From Armatimonadota bacterium (lineage in GTDB: Bacteria; Armatimonadota; Fimbriimonadia; Fimbriimonadales; Fimbriimonadaceae), in the NCBI GenBank assembly GCA_025360125.1, contig JANYCU010000035.1:62001-126000 (forward strand): 64,000 nucleotides of DNA. Direction: 5' to 3'. The position numbers were made by a program, and so were the translations under genes. Shown piece by piece: positions 26,858 through 32,402 of the stretch. Under the pieces are notes generated by a model. The model worked only from the letters and a program-made list of their open reading frames with translations, ran no database searches and was not told the origin of the DNA. The stretch's first letter is position 1, and each line of letters starts with the position of its first letter.

Positions 26858-28546
26858 CTAGTTTGGCGGAGGTTGACTTTTGTCGTTAAATTCTTTGAAA
26901 AGTTCTTCGGTTTGTTTCTTAACCTTGTCTCGAAAATCTTGAGGCATCTCGCCGTACGGTGCGGTCTTGACGGTTTCTTTTTCAAAGAAAAAAGTATAGG
27001 AGAATGGACGGTTCAGGGTTGATCGAAAAGAAATCGTGACGGCATCGCCAGCCACTAGGGTGACCTTGCGTTCATTGAGCTTCTTTTCAACCATCGGCCA
27101 TGTGTCTCCATACCACGTGACATTCCTGCTCGCCATTTCCGGGTCCATAGCTAACGGCGCTATCTCTGAAAATATGATTCGTTGGGCGGGTTCAATTTTG
27201 GTAGTCACGTCTCGTATTTGCTCTCGGCCACTTGGTCCGAAGTAATAGCCAAGCGTCTCATCATTTGGAAATGTTTCGGAGAATTCAAAGCTCGAGTTGG
27301 TACGACCATGGAGCAGGGTATCTCCAAATAGGCCGTTTCTCGTACTCTGCAACCGATTGATCGTTGTGCCATTGTTTCGGTCGATTAGTTCGAGCCCTTG
27401 AAGCGTCGGTAGGAGAGGATAGATTTCGAGAAATAGCTCGGGAATTTTTCTTTGCTGGGCAAGGGTGCCTGCTAAGTAGGTCAACAACTCAAAGTCGCTT
27501 TGTAGTCCACTCTCAGCAACCCAGTGGGCATAACGGTCAATGATAATTGAGCAGTCAAGTTCTTGCCTGATCCCGGCAACCTGTTGCTCGAGCACACGAC
27601 AATCTTCTGATCTTGGCAAGAATGGCGGCAGGACCATCACAATTTGATCGCATTCGAACGCCCGATACCCGAGCGAAGTGAGATAGGATTCGGCGGTTCC
27701 TCCTTGCCTCACAAAATTGACGATTTCAAAGTCGTTGGCGAGTATGGCAACTGGCTTCTGATTATTTGGATCCCGGTTGAAATAGTGCTGCTTGAACCAC
27801 CGTAGCAATCCAGCTTTGTCGATTTCACGCCAGTCAAACTCCTTCGTCTTAACCCCGTCACGGGGAATGCCATCCGATATTTCGCCTGCCTTTAAGATTC
27901 TTTTCTTGTCGGCTCCCAAGCAGTCGAATGAATTCCCAGGGATTGGACTGCTGGGATCAAAATCGTTAAACATCACCTTTTGCAACTCAAGGGACTTTCC
28001 TAACGAATCATGTATCGAAAGATAGGTCACGAAACGTGTGTCGATCTTTCGAATGAGAATATATAGTCTCAGGTCCGGCTTCCGCCACTTCTTCTCAGCA
28101 CCTTCGTATAATTTATTTGCAAGAATTGTCGAGCTTGGCGACAGACCAGACGCACCTGATTTGTCGATGTAGATCCATTTCCCTCCAATCAGTCCATTGA
28201 GCGGAAACGATTCCGGATTAAGGTCAACAAGGAGCTTTTTGAGGTCGCTTTGCGGTCCCGTCGCAAGCTGAAGTTTCCAGTTCGCCAGCAACTTGGTCTG
28301 AGACTCGCCCTGACCCTTTTCTGATTCATGAGCGAGATCGGAAGCCCGCCAAGCTGTAAGTTTTTTGCATTCGGATGCCAACTTTGCTTTCGAAGTTTCA
28401 TCCCACTGCCCCAAAAGAATCCACCGATGTTTAGCGGCCAGAGTTCGTTCGCGGCCAGATATGTCGGCAGCCCTTAAGATATCTGCACTCGTCGTGATTG
28501 CCTTTTGCTGAGAGATCAAAAGTAGCAATGGTAGCAGAGCAATCAT
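26858..28546 (-). CDS. Unknown secreted protein
   Basis: I do not recognise this 562-residue protein. A hydrophobic N-terminus (IALLPLLLLIS, residues 2-12) suggests a signal peptide, so it is probably periplasmic or secreted. The body is mixed alpha/beta, with no metal or nucleotide motif I can name. It starts 4 bases after the stop of 28551-29069 and is probably co-transcribed with it and with the duplicated module upstream. Confidence 0.75.
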   Translation of the reverse strand: MIALLPLLLLISQQKAITTSADILRAADISGRERTLAAKHRWILLGQWDETSKAKLASECKKLTAWRASDLAHESEKGQGESQTKLLANWKLQLATGPQSDLKKLLVDLNPESFPLNGLIGGKWIYIDKSGASGLSPSSTILANKLYEGAEKKWRKPDLRLYILIRKIDTRFVTYLSIHDSLGKSLELQKVMFNDFDPSSPIPGNSFDCLGADKKRILKAGEISDGIPRDGVKTKEFDWREIDKAGLLRWFKQHYFNRDPNNQKPVAILANDFEIVNFVRQGGTAESYLTSLGYRAFECDQIVMVLPPFLPRSEDCRVLEQQVAGIRQELDCSIIIDRYAHWVAESGLQSDFELLTYLAGTLAQQRKIPELFLEIYPLLPTLQGLELIDRNNGTTINRLQSTRNGLFGDTLLHGRTNSSFEFSETFPNDETLGYYFGPSGREQIRDVTTKIEPAQRIIFSEIAPLAMDPEMASRNVTWYGDTWPMVEKKLNERKVTLVAGDAVTISFRSTLNRPFSYTFFFEKETVKTAPYGEMPQDFRDKVKKQTEELFKEFNDKSQPPPN

Positions 28547-28550
28547 GGCT

Positions 28551-29069
28551 TTACAACTTCACAATTTCGCCGGAAATAGTGATCCCTTCTCCGCTGGGCT
28601 TTCCATCGGCTTTCGGGTCTCCGGCAGCATTCTTCTTGGTGTCCTTCGACTCAAAAATCAAAATGGTTTTGGGGTCTTTGATGTCGCCTTTATACTTGCC
28701 TGCAACCGCAGTGTTGATTGCAAAGCCAAATTGATCCGGGGTTGTATCGAGGTCGGGCCGCTTCAGCTTTTTCTCAGCTTCGCCCTTTTTCAGGTTCTGG
28801 GTCTGCAATCGAATCAACAAGTCGTCCATCCACTTCTCAGCCTTGGGGTACGAATCCTCGGACGAGTGGTACAGGTCGGCGGCGGTCTGCATCGCTTTGA
28901 GTCGATCCCGAATATCTCCTTTGTAAGCCTCAGTACCTGAGACATCCTTTTGAGTCAAAACTCCTACGAGTGAACGGAGCGCCTTGCCCTCGGGAGTGAA
29001 CCAGCCGATCCCACAGCCAATAACCAGAACAACCAGGGCTCCTCGGGCAATCTTCTTTCCTTTCGACAT
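28551..29069 (-). CDS. Unknown membrane-anchored protein
   Basis: 172 residues with a basic N-terminus and one helix (ALVVLVIGCGIGWF, residues about 11-24), then a soluble extracytoplasmic region. The layout (an N-terminal anchor, then SYPKAEKWMDDLL and FGFAINTAVAGKYKGD) recalls the short pseudopilin-like proteins common in related genomes, but the pilin cleavage motif is absent. A minus-strand TTGAAG, an 18-base spacer, TACAAT and 8 bases lead into the ATG, so it is probably leaderless and starts a transcript with 26858-28546. Confidence 0.75.
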   Translation of the reverse strand: MSKGKKIARGALVVLVIGCGIGWFTPEGKALRSLVGVLTQKDVSGTEAYKGDIRDRLKAMQTAADLYHSSEDSYPKAEKWMDDLLIRLQTQNLKKGEAEKKLKRPDLDTTPDQFGFAINTAVAGKYKGDIKDPKTILIFESKDTKKNAAGDPKADGKPSGEGITISGEIVKL

Positions 29070-29077
29070 ATAGGTTC

Positions 29078-29107
29078 ATTGTATCGCAGGCCAAAATCCT
29101 ACTTCAA
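29078..29107 (-). promoter_or_regulatory. Promoter TTGAAG-N18-TACAAT, leaderless
   Basis: On the minus strand TTGAAG (29107-29102) and TACAAT (29083-29078) are 18 bases apart, and the ATG at 29069 follows 8 bases after the -10. The -35 overlaps the last codons of the upstream gene. Confidence 0.55.
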
Positions 29108-29833
29108 CAAAGAAATGATCTGATAGAATTCGGGAGTTACTTGCACGCCTCCATTTTCGTCCATCAAGATTGCATACTTCATCACAATTTTTTTCTCTCC
29201 CAAAAAAACGTCTCTGCTTCCGAGACATGCCTTTAGGATCGACTTACCCAGAATTACCGAGAAACGCGAATTGTCGTCTTCATATTCTAAGACTGCATTT
29301 TGCTTGGTCGGATCAAAGGCTGTATACGAATTATCAATATTCAACTCCTTAACCGCTTGATATTGCATAAGCGCAAACACCCTGGGCGAGTTACTCTCCG
29401 TAAACTTCAAGCACTCCTTGATTTCCAAATTCTCCTTACTTGCTCTGAGAATGCATGAGAATGAGACTTCACATCGTGTACCGATGACGTCGACCGTATC
29501 CGAATCCAAGGACATCGTGTTGCCCAACGAAAATCCAGAACTCAACACGTTGTTATTCCACTGAGCACGTTGGCCCTTTTGAAATTCTTGACCTTCCTTC
29601 CGCCAAATCGCATGAATGGAAACTTGAGAGGCCGAAGAATCAAACATGTCACAGCCAAACCTAAGTCGGTCTCCTTTTTGATATAGGTTTACGGGCTTAA
29701 ACTCGCTGAGGCTTGCGACGTTGGCCCGAATTATGGCTTGCAGGTCTGCTCTTTCGTCTGGTCTGGCGAATCCCGACCCCAAAGTAATCCCAACAAGTGA
29801 TATCCAAAGTATTTTCGTATGATGATTTTTCAT
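29099..29833 (-). CDS. Unknown secreted protein, copy 1 of duplicated gene B
   Basis: 244 residues with a signal-peptide-like N-terminus (ILWISLVGITLGSGFARP). It is clearly homologous to 30505-31236: both share SQVSIH/Q, GNNxLxxGFxLGNTMS, CEVxFSxILR, PRVFALMQxQAxxEL and a C-terminal LxACLGSxDVF then ILMDENG. Two cysteines near C-E-V and A-C-L-G are conserved. Its function is unknown. The ATG shares a base with the stop of gene A (TAATG at 29833), so translation of the two is coupled. Confidence 0.78.
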   Translation of the reverse strand: MKNHHTKILWISLVGITLGSGFARPDERADLQAIIRANVASLSEFKPVNLYQKGDRLRFGCDMFDSSASQVSIHAIWRKEGQEFQKGQRAQWNNNVLSSGFSLGNTMSLDSDTVDVIGTRCEVSFSCILRASKENLEIKECLKFTESNSPRVFALMQYQAVKELNIDNSYTAFDPTKQNAVLEYEDDNSRFSVILGKSILKACLGSRDVFLGEKKIVMKYAILMDENGGVQVTPEFYQIISLLK

Positions 29834-30405
29834 TACATTTTCTTGTGTTGTTTTGGATTTATTGCAATCTCATAGGCAGGCAGCCAACCAACGCCAGCCG
29901 AAGATGCTAAATTGGAGGTGTTGTTGTGCGTCCACAATTCGTCCCAAGCTAATCCACCGTATGGAAACTGATACCCATTGTGGAAGTAGAGGGGCATTAA
30001 CCAGCTCGTGTAATCACATTCAAGCCACGGATTTCCATACCAATCATAGGCATAAGCACTGGTTGCATCATAATATGAGCTCGCAAGCCGGAGAGGCGAA
30101 TGATAGCCGAATATCTCCTGCTGCCAAGGTGTACTGACTTGTTCAGCCGCTTTTAAAGATTGCGTGACAATATAGCCATCATACCAATCTGAACCAAATT
30201 GTCTGTTTGGTACTTCCATAATCATTGTGTCCCCTTCCATTCCTTGCGCTTCCAAAGCGGTCCAAAGTAATGTAGACACATCGTCGCACATCATGTTGTG
30301 GAAATTTGAGGCACCTACTGACCCAGCTGGGTATTGACCAAAAAAAGTATACCAATTATCAATGCCGATACCAATATCAGGATCTAAAGATCCTCCTCCT
30401 CCCAA
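29833..30405 (-). CDS. Unknown protein, gene A of duplicated module, possibly transglutaminase-like and N-terminally broken
   Basis: 190 residues beginning GGGGSLDPDIGIG, rich in Trp, Tyr and Asn. The stretch MCDDVSTLLWTALEAQGMEGD resembles the Cys helix of transglutaminase-like folds, and GGLAWDELW resembles the His strand (usually HAWNEV) but with Leu for His. This is inference only. The only in-frame start is TTG 30405. A good leaderless ATG at 30424 (TACAAT, 7 bases upstream) is one frame off, so the gene may be frameshifted at its 5' end. A remnant of a second copy lies at 31242-31385. Confidence 0.6.
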   Translation of the reverse strand: MGGGGSLDPDIGIGIDNWYTFFGQYPAGSVGASNFHNMMCDDVSTLLWTALEAQGMEGDTMIMEVPNRQFGSDWYDGYIVTQSLKAAEQVSTPWQQEIFGYHSPLRLASSYYDATSAYAYDWYGNPWLECDYTSWLMPLYFHNGYQFPYGGLAWDELWTHNNTSNLASSAGVGWLPAYEIAINPKQHKKM

Positions 30406-30504
30406 TCTTCCTTCGCTTCGACATATCCTTTATTGTATCGGACGAATTACGGATAGTATTGTTCAAGAATCGCCCACAAGCCGAAACGCACCGCCGACAG
30501 TCCG

Positions 30505-31236
30505 CTAGCTGAGTGAAGAAACAATATCAATGAATTCTTGGGTCACCTTGATGATGCCATTCTCATCCATTAAAATTGGATCTTTCATGGTTGTTTTCTT
30601 GGAACCGACAAATACGTCTTTGCTACCAAGGCAGGCACTTAACGTCTGCTCGCCTTTCCTTATGATGAATTTTGATTGATCGTCAGCAAATATAAGCTCA
30701 AGGCTAAGGTTTTTCGCATCAAAACTGGAATACGTACCATCCAATTCTAATTCTCTAAGTGCTTGGAATTGCATTAGCGCAAAGACCTTGGGCGCATTGG
30801 CCTCACAGAACTGAATTTGTCTTTTCGAATCCATTTCCATTCGGTTCTCCCGGAGAATATTTGAAAATGTAACCTCGCAATTATTGCCAATAATATCGAT
30901 TGATCCGTTATTTCTTGACATGGTGTTGCCTAGGGTAAAACCGAATTCAAGCTGATTATTTCCCCAACTTGGACGCGAATGACGATCAAACTCTACTTGC
31001 TTTTTAAAAATAATAAGCTGAATTGAAACCTGTGAAAAGGACTTATCAAGAAAGTCGCACATCAGTCGACCAGACCAATTCTTCTGGACATTATTTTTTG
31101 GCTCGAAGTCCTTTAGTGCTAAGACATTTCCGCGAAGAATCTTGACCAAATCTTGATGAATTTGGAATTTTTTATACCCCATAATGCATAGAGCGGTGAG
31201 AACCACAGTACCAAACAAACTTATGTTCTTCTTCAT
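30505..31236 (-). CDS. Unknown membrane-anchored protein, copy 2 of duplicated gene B
   Basis: 243 residues starting MKKNISLFGTVVLTALCIMGYKKF, a signal anchor. The rest is homologous along its length to 29099-29833, including NTMS, NCEVTFSNILRE, APKVFALMQFQALREL, SACLGSKDVFVGSKK and DPILMDENG. ATG 31236 is chosen because the frame upstream of it covers the tail of the gene A remnant read in another frame. Function is unknown; a partner or inhibitor of gene A's product is one guess. Confidence 0.75.
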   Translation of the reverse strand: MKKNISLFGTVVLTALCIMGYKKFQIHQDLVKILRGNVLALKDFEPKNNVQKNWSGRLMCDFLDKSFSQVSIQLIIFKKQVEFDRHSRPSWGNNQLEFGFTLGNTMSRNNGSIDIIGNNCEVTFSNILRENRMEMDSKRQIQFCEANAPKVFALMQFQALRELELDGTYSSFDAKNLSLELIFADDQSKFIIRKGEQTLSACLGSKDVFVGSKKTTMKDPILMDENGIIKVTQEFIDIVSSLS

Positions 31237-31241
31237 ATTCT

Positions 31242-31385
31242 TCAATTCCCAGGATCCTGTATGTGCCCTTTGGGATTTATCGCTAGGATCACTGGGGCGA
31301 CCCAGCCGACCGAAGGGTCTGAAGCATAATATTGGTTGGTCCCAATGGCCCAAACCTCATTCCATGCCAGCCCACCATTCGACAC
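31242..31385 (-). pseudogene. Remnant of a second copy of gene A (C-terminal 47 codons)
   Basis: Read on the minus strand, this frame gives GGLAWNEVWAIGTN, SVGWVAPVILAINPK and a stop. It aligns with the C-terminus of 29833-30405 (GGLAWDELW, GVGWLPAYEIAINPK). Upstream, TCCGATACAATAA and TGTCGAA also match the promoter region of the intact copy, so an internal deletion has joined the promoter to the last codons. It ends 5 bases before gene B copy 2, the same order as in the other copy. Confidence 0.7.
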
Positions 31386-31414
31386 TTATTGTATCGGAAT
31401 TTAGGTTCATCTGT

Positions 31415-31420
31415 CACAAT
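31415..31420 (+). promoter_or_regulatory. -10-like CACAAT, leaderless start at GTG 31428
   Basis: CACAAT is followed by 7 bases and GTG 31428, the first codon of the PLP enzyme. A TTGTAT at 31390-31395 (19-base spacer) is a weak -35 candidate. Confidence 0.4.
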
Positions 31421-31427
31421 ACAAGCT

Positions 31428-32402
31428 GTGGCTGTGCCGATCGATCTTCCAAAAGTGAGCCTGATTTTGGCGCCAACCCCGCTCCATCGATTAGATAGAA
31501 TGTCCGATCGACTTGGCATTGACCTTTGGATCAAGCGGGACGACCTGACTGGGTTCGCGATGGGCGGGAACAAGGGTCGAAAACTGGAATACCTCATGGG
31601 CGAGGCGTTGGCACAGGGCGCAAACACTATCGTGACGTGCGGCGGAGCCCAATCCAACTTCGTGCGCCAGCTCGCCGCAGCCTGTTCGCGGTTCGGCATC
31701 CGGTTCATCGCGGTTGTCATGCCGCTTCCGTACGAATTTGAGCCCGTCGAGGGAGGTCTAAAGGCTTCGGGCGGAAATATCTTGCTGGATGAAATCCTTG
31801 GGGCGGATATTCGCATCCTTCCCAACGGGACCTGGGACCACCTGTTCGCCGAAACGTCAAAGGTCGCCGAAGAGTGCCGAAGCGCAGGAGCCAACGTTTA
31901 CGAAATTCCGATTGGCGGAAGTTCTCCTCAAGGGGCGTATGCGTTCTACGAAGCCGGCAAAGAATTGCTGGACCAGGACTCGCGCTTCGACCTGGTTATC
32001 GGCGCAAGTTCTTCTGGCTCGACCCAGACAGGGCTAACCTACGCTTTACACGGCACGGGAATTCCGTTTCATGGCATCGCATGCGATCCCGAACCGGAAA
32101 TGGTTCTCGAATTCGCCACCCTCGCAGCTGGTGTCGACGAAATCACGGGGATGAACCTCAATCTCAAACCGGAGGCATTCACTTTTGATCTTCGTTTCGT
32201 CGGTCCCGGTTACGGAGTGCCCAGCGAAGGTTGTATGGATGCTATTCGACTATTGGCTCAAAAGGAAGGCATCTTTCTTGACCCGGTCTACTCGGGCAAG
32301 GCGTTTCATGGCCTGATCGAGATGGCCCAAGCTGGGGAAATCAAGGGTCGCGTCTGCTTCTGGCACACGGGTGGAAGTCCGGCGTTGTTTGCTATGAGTT
32401 AA
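31428..32402 (+). CDS. PLP-dependent D-cysteine desulfhydrase / ACC deaminase family
   Basis: A fold-type II PLP enzyme of about 324 residues. It has PTPLHRLDRMSDRLG, IKRDDLTGFAMGGNKGRKLEYL (Schiff-base Lys in GGNKGRK), CGGAQSNFVRQLAAAC, IPIGGSSPQGAYAF and FWHTGGSPALF, the usual C-terminus. D-cysteine desulfhydrase releases pyruvate, sulfide and ammonia; ACC deaminase is the close alternative. I chose GTG 31428 (GTG 31434 is also possible) by the position of the -10 and the family start; longer upstream frames would overlap the remnant on the other strand. Confidence 0.87.
   Translation: MAVPIDLPKVSLILAPTPLHRLDRMSDRLGIDLWIKRDDLTGFAMGGNKGRKLEYLMGEALAQGANTIVTCGGAQSNFVRQLAAACSRFGIRFIAVVMPLPYEFEPVEGGLKASGGNILLDEILGADIRILPNGTWDHLFAETSKVAEECRSAGANVYEIPIGGSSPQGAYAFYEAGKELLDQDSRFDLVIGASSSGSTQTGLTYALHGTGIPFHGIACDPEPEMVLEFATLAAGVDEITGMNLNLKPEAFTFDLRFVGPGYGVPSEGCMDAIRLLAQKEGIFLDPVYSGKAFHGLIEMAQAGEIKGRVCFWHTGGSPALFAMS

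Follow-up and report, generated by a model that had tools for sequence, protein, structure and literature searches.

Two related genes, here called B1 and B2, lie side by side in the window (the whole 64-kb stretch of DNA analyzed), each preceded by a piece of another gene, A. The locus therefore raises the question of how this arrangement came about and which function the two genes may have. In the sequence-only reading it had been regarded as a duplicated A-B unit, one A of which had been deleted down to its last 47 codons, and the kept B had been taken as a hint to a toxin-immunity or enzyme-inhibitor pair. The features of the locus are as follows.

28551–29069, minus strand: gene C, host flank, 172 amino acids; present in all 20 genomes from the genus
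29039–29086, minus strand: R1, promoter and start of gene C, from comparison with R2; contains the word CGATACAATNA
29099–29833, minus strand: B1, intact predicted immunity or inhibitor gene, 244 amino acids; 45% identity to B2, hydrophobic N-terminus
29833–30405, minus strand: A, 5′-truncated effector-like gene, 190 codons from TTG; partial profile match and alignment to relatives
30396–30440, minus strand: R2, copy of the gene C promoter and first codons, now leader of A; 79% over 48 bp to R1
30505–31236, minus strand: B2, second intact predicted immunity or inhibitor gene, 243 amino acids, hydrophobic N-terminus; homology to B1
31242–31385, minus strand: A′, remainder of a second A (final ~40 codons), in a 47-codon ORF starting with GTG in the host leader; match to the end of A
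31386–31398, minus strand: R3, host promoter copy adjoining the desulfhydrase gene; word CGATACAATNA
31410–32402, plus strand: D-cysteine desulfhydrase-like gene, host flank on the opposite side, with an approximate start; adjoins gene C in six relatives

Layout of the Locus

Read 5′ to 3′ on the minus strand, the order is desulfhydrase promoter side, R3, A′, B2, R2, A, B1, R1, and gene C. The homology of the two B copies was borne out (45% identity over 238 amino acids, E = 3e-71). A and A′ share 47% identity over 38 amino acids (E = 6e-10), a match confined to the C-terminus of A, and A′ was also recovered in the genome search (E = 2.7e-5). The earlier assignment of the 47-codon piece to the C-terminus of A is thereby upheld for its last ~40 codons, whereas the start of the ORF lies in the host leader; the notion that this copy lost its middle has to be given up, since everything 5′ of the homologous codons is gone. 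Changes at codon positions 1, 2, and 3 number 106, 84, and 160 between B1 and B2 and 19, 13, and 29 between A and A′. The third-position excess in both comparisons indicates that both pairs diverged largely as coding sequence. The ORF adjoining gene C (26858–28546, minus strand, 562 amino acids) yielded no Pfam match above the cut-off, and its counterparts beside gene C in genomes G084 and G097 show 30–32% identity at most.

Gene A Encodes a Putative Cys-His-Asp Enzyme

A search of the genome contigs with A of the window alone yielded no match. The first relatives came from two loci (L007 and L008), after which a profile search of the phylum was built; a six-row alignment, used as query, found further loci. 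The profile search detected A in 32 of 291 Armatimonadota genomes, a distribution which rules out that A is a conserved housekeeping protein, the possibility that the sequence-only reading had named as speaking against its proposal. An N-terminal A fragment at G141:C13 turned out to be a mere contig end. Carriage by a phage or plasmid found no support, as searches with two A queries against plasmids and with one against phages gave no matches.

Intact A proteins comprise ~400–460 amino acids and consist of a signal peptide, an Ig-like domain and a C-terminal domain, in which a Cys, a His, and an Asp are invariant in all 33 full-length members. One of the intact genes is that of Armatimonadetes bacterium Uphvl-Ar1 (CP021423). 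The copy in the window covers only positions 251–369 of the 391-position family profile; it retains the three residues, whereas signal peptide, Ig-like domain and the beginning of the catalytic domain are missing. The picture of one intact and one deleted A is thus ruled out, as both copies are truncated. The profile search found no further A in the genome of the window, which contains three B genes.

No Pfam entry matched A and no curated family fits it. Its order of Cys, His, and Asp is that of the transglutaminase-like superfamily (PF01841), with similar spacing, and the Cys motif aligns with Transglut_core around the Cys only, at the weak E-value of 0.0025 (hhalign; 0.39 for B as control). 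In contrast to that superfamily, A lacks a Pfam match, shows only this weak profile match and has an Ig-like domain in front. The structure prediction proposed earlier was carried out for A with AF2 (13 sequences); it supported the Ig-like part only, and the catalytic fold was not reached (mean pLDDT 49). Apart from the signal-peptide-like N-terminus and the Ig-like domain, no carrier domain was detected by Pfam in A from Armatimonadota.

Gene B Combines a Fast-Changing Domain With a Stalk-Like Domain

B1 consists of a signal-peptide-like N-terminus, a fast-changing N-domain and a C-terminal stalk-like domain. Pfam, a sequence search against solved structures and the fold itself all identify the latter as a copper amine oxidase N-terminal domain, the model of B2 matching domain 1 of E. 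coli amine oxidase; the fold of the N-domain was not reached. In the comparison with the staphostatin and Spi inhibitors, searches of Pfam and NCBIfam gave no match for B beyond the stalk-like domain.

A full-length B profile built without the genus of the window yielded E-values of 5e-4 to 3.5e-3 for B1 (3.5e-3), B2, the third B of this genome (B3) and overlapping ORFs; nothing else matched among 58 window ORFs and 200 shuffles. The N-domain of B1 was not recognized by profiles without its own genus, and B1 and B2 are to be seen as weaker, putative members of the family. B3 is located on another contig (G000:C36; L006, 7951–8706, minus strand) with no A beside it. It lies close behind a tRNA gene (GCA-reading, as judged by eye) and is followed by a short aspartic-protease-like ORF.

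A and B Are Paired, and A Is Repeatedly Lost

Other A-B pairs, for which a search had been proposed, are common, and the order A then B is conserved: an ORF lies directly downstream of A in 39 of 40 loci and is mostly recognizable as B. The exception is found in G009, where a shorter B match is located further downstream. Profiles leaving out the respective genus recognized 29 of the 39 B N-domains. In 38 of the 39 downstream ORFs the N-terminus is hydrophobic and signal-peptide-like (from hydropathy only), and on this basis a type II toxin-antitoxin system, where both partners are cytoplasmic, was rejected.

Partial A genes in front of B are not restricted to the window. G183 contains a full A-B pair followed by two units of a partial A and B, and G184 and G034 have the same layout; debris of A precedes an intact B in G130:C163 and G141:C18. 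Truncated A tips with a partner B are present in the window, G183, G184, G034, and G130:C163, with the caveat that several frameshifts lie in metagenome assemblies and may be errors. Tandems of the type A-B-B occur in G098, G146, G138, and G126, and solo or tandem B genes in several further genomes. At one site, G129 and G130 can be compared directly: the flanks are 91% identical on both sides, G130 carries A and B, G129 carries B only, and the two B proteins diverge over their first ~75 residues. Just upstream of the solo B of G129 (L137), a decayed 97-bp piece resembles the end of a B (73%), which suggests that it could be a trace of an earlier tandem arrangement.

No intact A without B was found among the loci with enough sequence. 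Independent occurrence of the two genes, which had been named as an argument against a functional pair, is therefore seen for B but not for A. A decays repeatedly while B stays, and this, together with the pairing, is what would be predicted for a toxin-immunity or enzyme-inhibitor pair; the retention pattern invoked by the sequence-only reading is recovered to this extent, with the addition that B also exists without any A.

A Variable Block Spans the Two Genes

In closely related pairs, the first ~200–240 residues of A and the stalk-like domain of B are alike, whereas similarity is lost in the catalytic half of A and in the N-domain of B. For six such pairs, divergence was determined at four-fold sites in codons with unchanged amino acid. 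In five of them it was 0.60–0.83 in the block compared to 0.15–0.58 in the flanks (p = 0.014 to 4e-10), with the reservation that the block limits had been set from amino-acid identity before the synonymous test, which introduces a bias; in the sixth (G049/G051), no difference was seen between block and flanks (p = 0.25). Relaxed constraint on the protein alone does not raise synonymous divergence. The raised values in the block hence imply that its history differs from that of the flanks, either by exchange of the block or by gene conversion of the flanks. We infer exchange as the cause, although the pattern would look no different after gene conversion of the flanks. A and B also co-vary (Mantel r = 0.81, 30 pairs). 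A of the window starts roughly at the start of the block and resembles a tip that lacks the constant part.

Origin of the Modules in the Window

The promoter words noted earlier as common to both modules are real: CGATACAATNA has three matches in the window, where 0.06 would be expected, and all are located at module boundaries (R1, R2, and R3). They are, however, no property of the A-B unit. The third copy precedes gene C, and the 79% match over 48 bp between the leader of A (R2) and the gene C promoter plus first codons (R1) indicates that this leader is a copy of the gene C start; a role of the words as private A-B signals is thus ruled out. In G097 and G084, which belong to the same genus, gene C and the desulfhydrase gene are divergent neighbors separated by a short gap with the same promoter word, and four further relatives show the same adjacency. 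As gene C directly adjoins the desulfhydrase gene in these six relatives, the 2.3 kb holding A′, B2, A, and B1 are most simply regarded as an insertion, inside which no transposase or integrase ORF was seen.

Gene C is 67–69% identical to its orthologues at the empty site of G097 and G084 and thus closer to them than B1 is to B2 (45%). This suggests that the two modules had probably diverged before being joined at the desulfhydrase-gene C site, an argument that a fast rate of B evolution would weaken. The duplication of a complete A-B unit with later cutting of one A, as originally proposed, is not supported, given that both A copies lack their 5′ part and that the divergence of B1 and B2 exceeds that of the gene C orthologues. 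A better fit is provided by two modules that had diverged beforehand and are each flanked by a host promoter copy. A modified duplication history, in which one full-length A-B pair entered, was tandemly duplicated and later lost the 5′ parts of both copies at different points, the R copies resulting from a duplication end inside gene C, is possible but rather unlikely. In its favor, the units lie next to each other, have the same orientation and show homology over their whole length, and R2 would be left by a duplication with its end inside gene C; however, it would require that each of the two deletions began immediately after R, the layout of truncated A plus B recurs in other genomes, and the low identity of B1 and B2 relative to gene C tells against it as well, unless B evolves faster. 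This history is compatible with any of the functional readings given below and can be true together with each of them, which is why the respective probabilities do not sum to one.

In G141 (L069, L071, L081, L108, and L147), several A-B copies are similar over a stretch that begins ~95 bp ahead of A and stops where B ends, as if the unit spread as one piece; no transposase was seen. One A of this genome is preceded by 100 bp that correspond to the start of the gene following another A-B unit (L108, 9524–9623; L069, 6231–6330), which places the start of a host gene in front of A, similar to the window.

Function of the A-B Modules

The modules of the window are probably orphan tip-immunity modules of an undescribed, Sec-exported effector-immunity system resembling polymorphic toxins. 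The latter are known for a toxin-then-immunity order, a constant and a variable part, truncated tips, and strings of leftover or solo immunity genes, with transglutaminase-type toxins (Tox-TGase) as one class and Sec export among the listed pathways (Zhang et al., 2012, PMC3482391). The A-B loci share with them the order of the genes, a constant N-terminal part and a variable C-terminal tip that changes with the partner (five of six pairs), as well as truncated tips and tandem or solo B. Unlike polymorphic toxins, A from Armatimonadota shows no RHS, FhaB, LXG, or VgrG carrier, only a signal peptide and an Ig-like domain, and falls outside the curated families; both A and B have signal-peptide-like N-termini; and the variable block has its end within the partner gene, leaving the stalk-like domain of the latter constant. 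Protection by orphan immunity genes is known, recombinase-associated acquired interbacterial defense being one example (PMC12247911). The retention of an immunity-like B without its effector is similar; the A-B modules differ in having no recombinase and in that a solo B keeps traces of A or stands alone, and B is a putative protector.

A full-length A, absent from the genome of the window, would be secreted and would combine the Ig-like domain with a transglutaminase- or papain-like Cys-His-Asp domain directed against competing cells, with their proteins or wall components as targets. B, whose gene directly follows A and which is presumably exported as well, would bind and block A, its fast-changing N-domain conferring specificity and its stalk-like domain remaining constant. 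New specificities might arise when recombination between the constant flanks swaps the block of catalytic half of A and N-domain of B; a block that is displaced or comes in would then leave a truncated A tip followed by an intact B, as in the window, and B might be kept for its ability to protect against A-type enzymes of neighbors. Toxicity, binding of A by B, protection, and this reason for the retention of B are what we infer. With more reserve, we consider that the loci may represent an undescribed family of exported effector-immunity pairs with members in several phyla. Its exchanged unit, composed of the catalytic half of the effector and the specificity domain of the immunity protein, would start inside the effector gene and end inside the immunity gene, move between two constant homologous ends, change as a matched pair and leave tip-plus-immunity modules behind.

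The main rival is a protease-inhibitor pair, in which A would be a cysteine protease or transglutaminase that is exported to serve nutrition or the envelope, and B a dedicated inhibitor shielding the envelope of the producer, comparable to staphostatin with staphopain and Spi with SpeB, with no competitor involved and B persisting by chance or owing to a second role. The triad and the predicted export suit such a pair, and neighboring co-transcribed protease and inhibitor genes are known, those staphopain-staphostatin and SpeB-Spi pairs likewise consisting of a secreted Cys-His enzyme and an adjacent small partner gene, while inhibitors of Bacteroides fragilis are predicted to be periplasmic or membrane-bound (PMC2873492). 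A natural A-B fusion, as found in Catalimonadaceae, would fit an enzyme with a built-in inhibitor and is unusual for toxin and immunity protein, which speaks against the effector-immunity reading. In contrast to these known pairs, A and B match no curated family save for the stalk-like domain of B, B is larger and carries that domain, and the A-B pairs vary and have often lost all but B. Since sparse distribution, a variable block and repeated B without A are unexpected for a housekeeping pair, we regard this explanation as unlikely. A role of B as chaperone, foldase, or anchor needed for export or folding of A would agree with its adjacency, predicted export and co-variation with A, but is very improbable, as a dedicated helper is not expected to persist where A is gone and shared descent also yields co-variation.

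No paper on such weapons in Armatimonadota was found in the open-access literature. If A is toxic and B protective, this little-studied phylum would gain a recombining effector-immunity family with named parts, and a clean case of toxin and immunity protein changing specificity together would be at hand. The reading as A-tip/B modules would also explain short C-terminal gene pieces in front of intact genes in Armatimonadota genomes.

Relatives Beyond the Phylum

With the six-row A alignment as query, related loci were detected in Burkholderiales, Sphingomonas, Bacteroidetes, Acidobacteria, Wenjunlia, KSB1, and Catalimonadaceae. The A domains of these other phyla are homologous to A from Armatimonadota (hhalign, E = 4.7e-22) and share the Cys-His-Asp triad. 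In the loci of Burkholderiales, Sphingomonas, Bacteroidetes, and Wenjunlia, the domain forms the end of proteins of more than 1000 amino acids; Pfam identified LamG domains in the one tested, from Burkholderiales, and hydrophobic segments were seen in three of the large proteins. These LamG-type relatives have no variable tip, which tells against the effector-immunity reading. Most of the loci from other phyla contain a small gene behind A, which is fused to A in Catalimonadaceae bacterium JC749, and this small partner weakly resembles the N-domain of B (E = 0.015). In Sphingomonas and Bacteroidetes (L165, 5258–6313, and L166, 459–1439, both plus strand), the LamG-type A protein and its partner are neighbors of a third gene of 326–351 amino acids, which has no family match and, as judged by eye, is alike in both.
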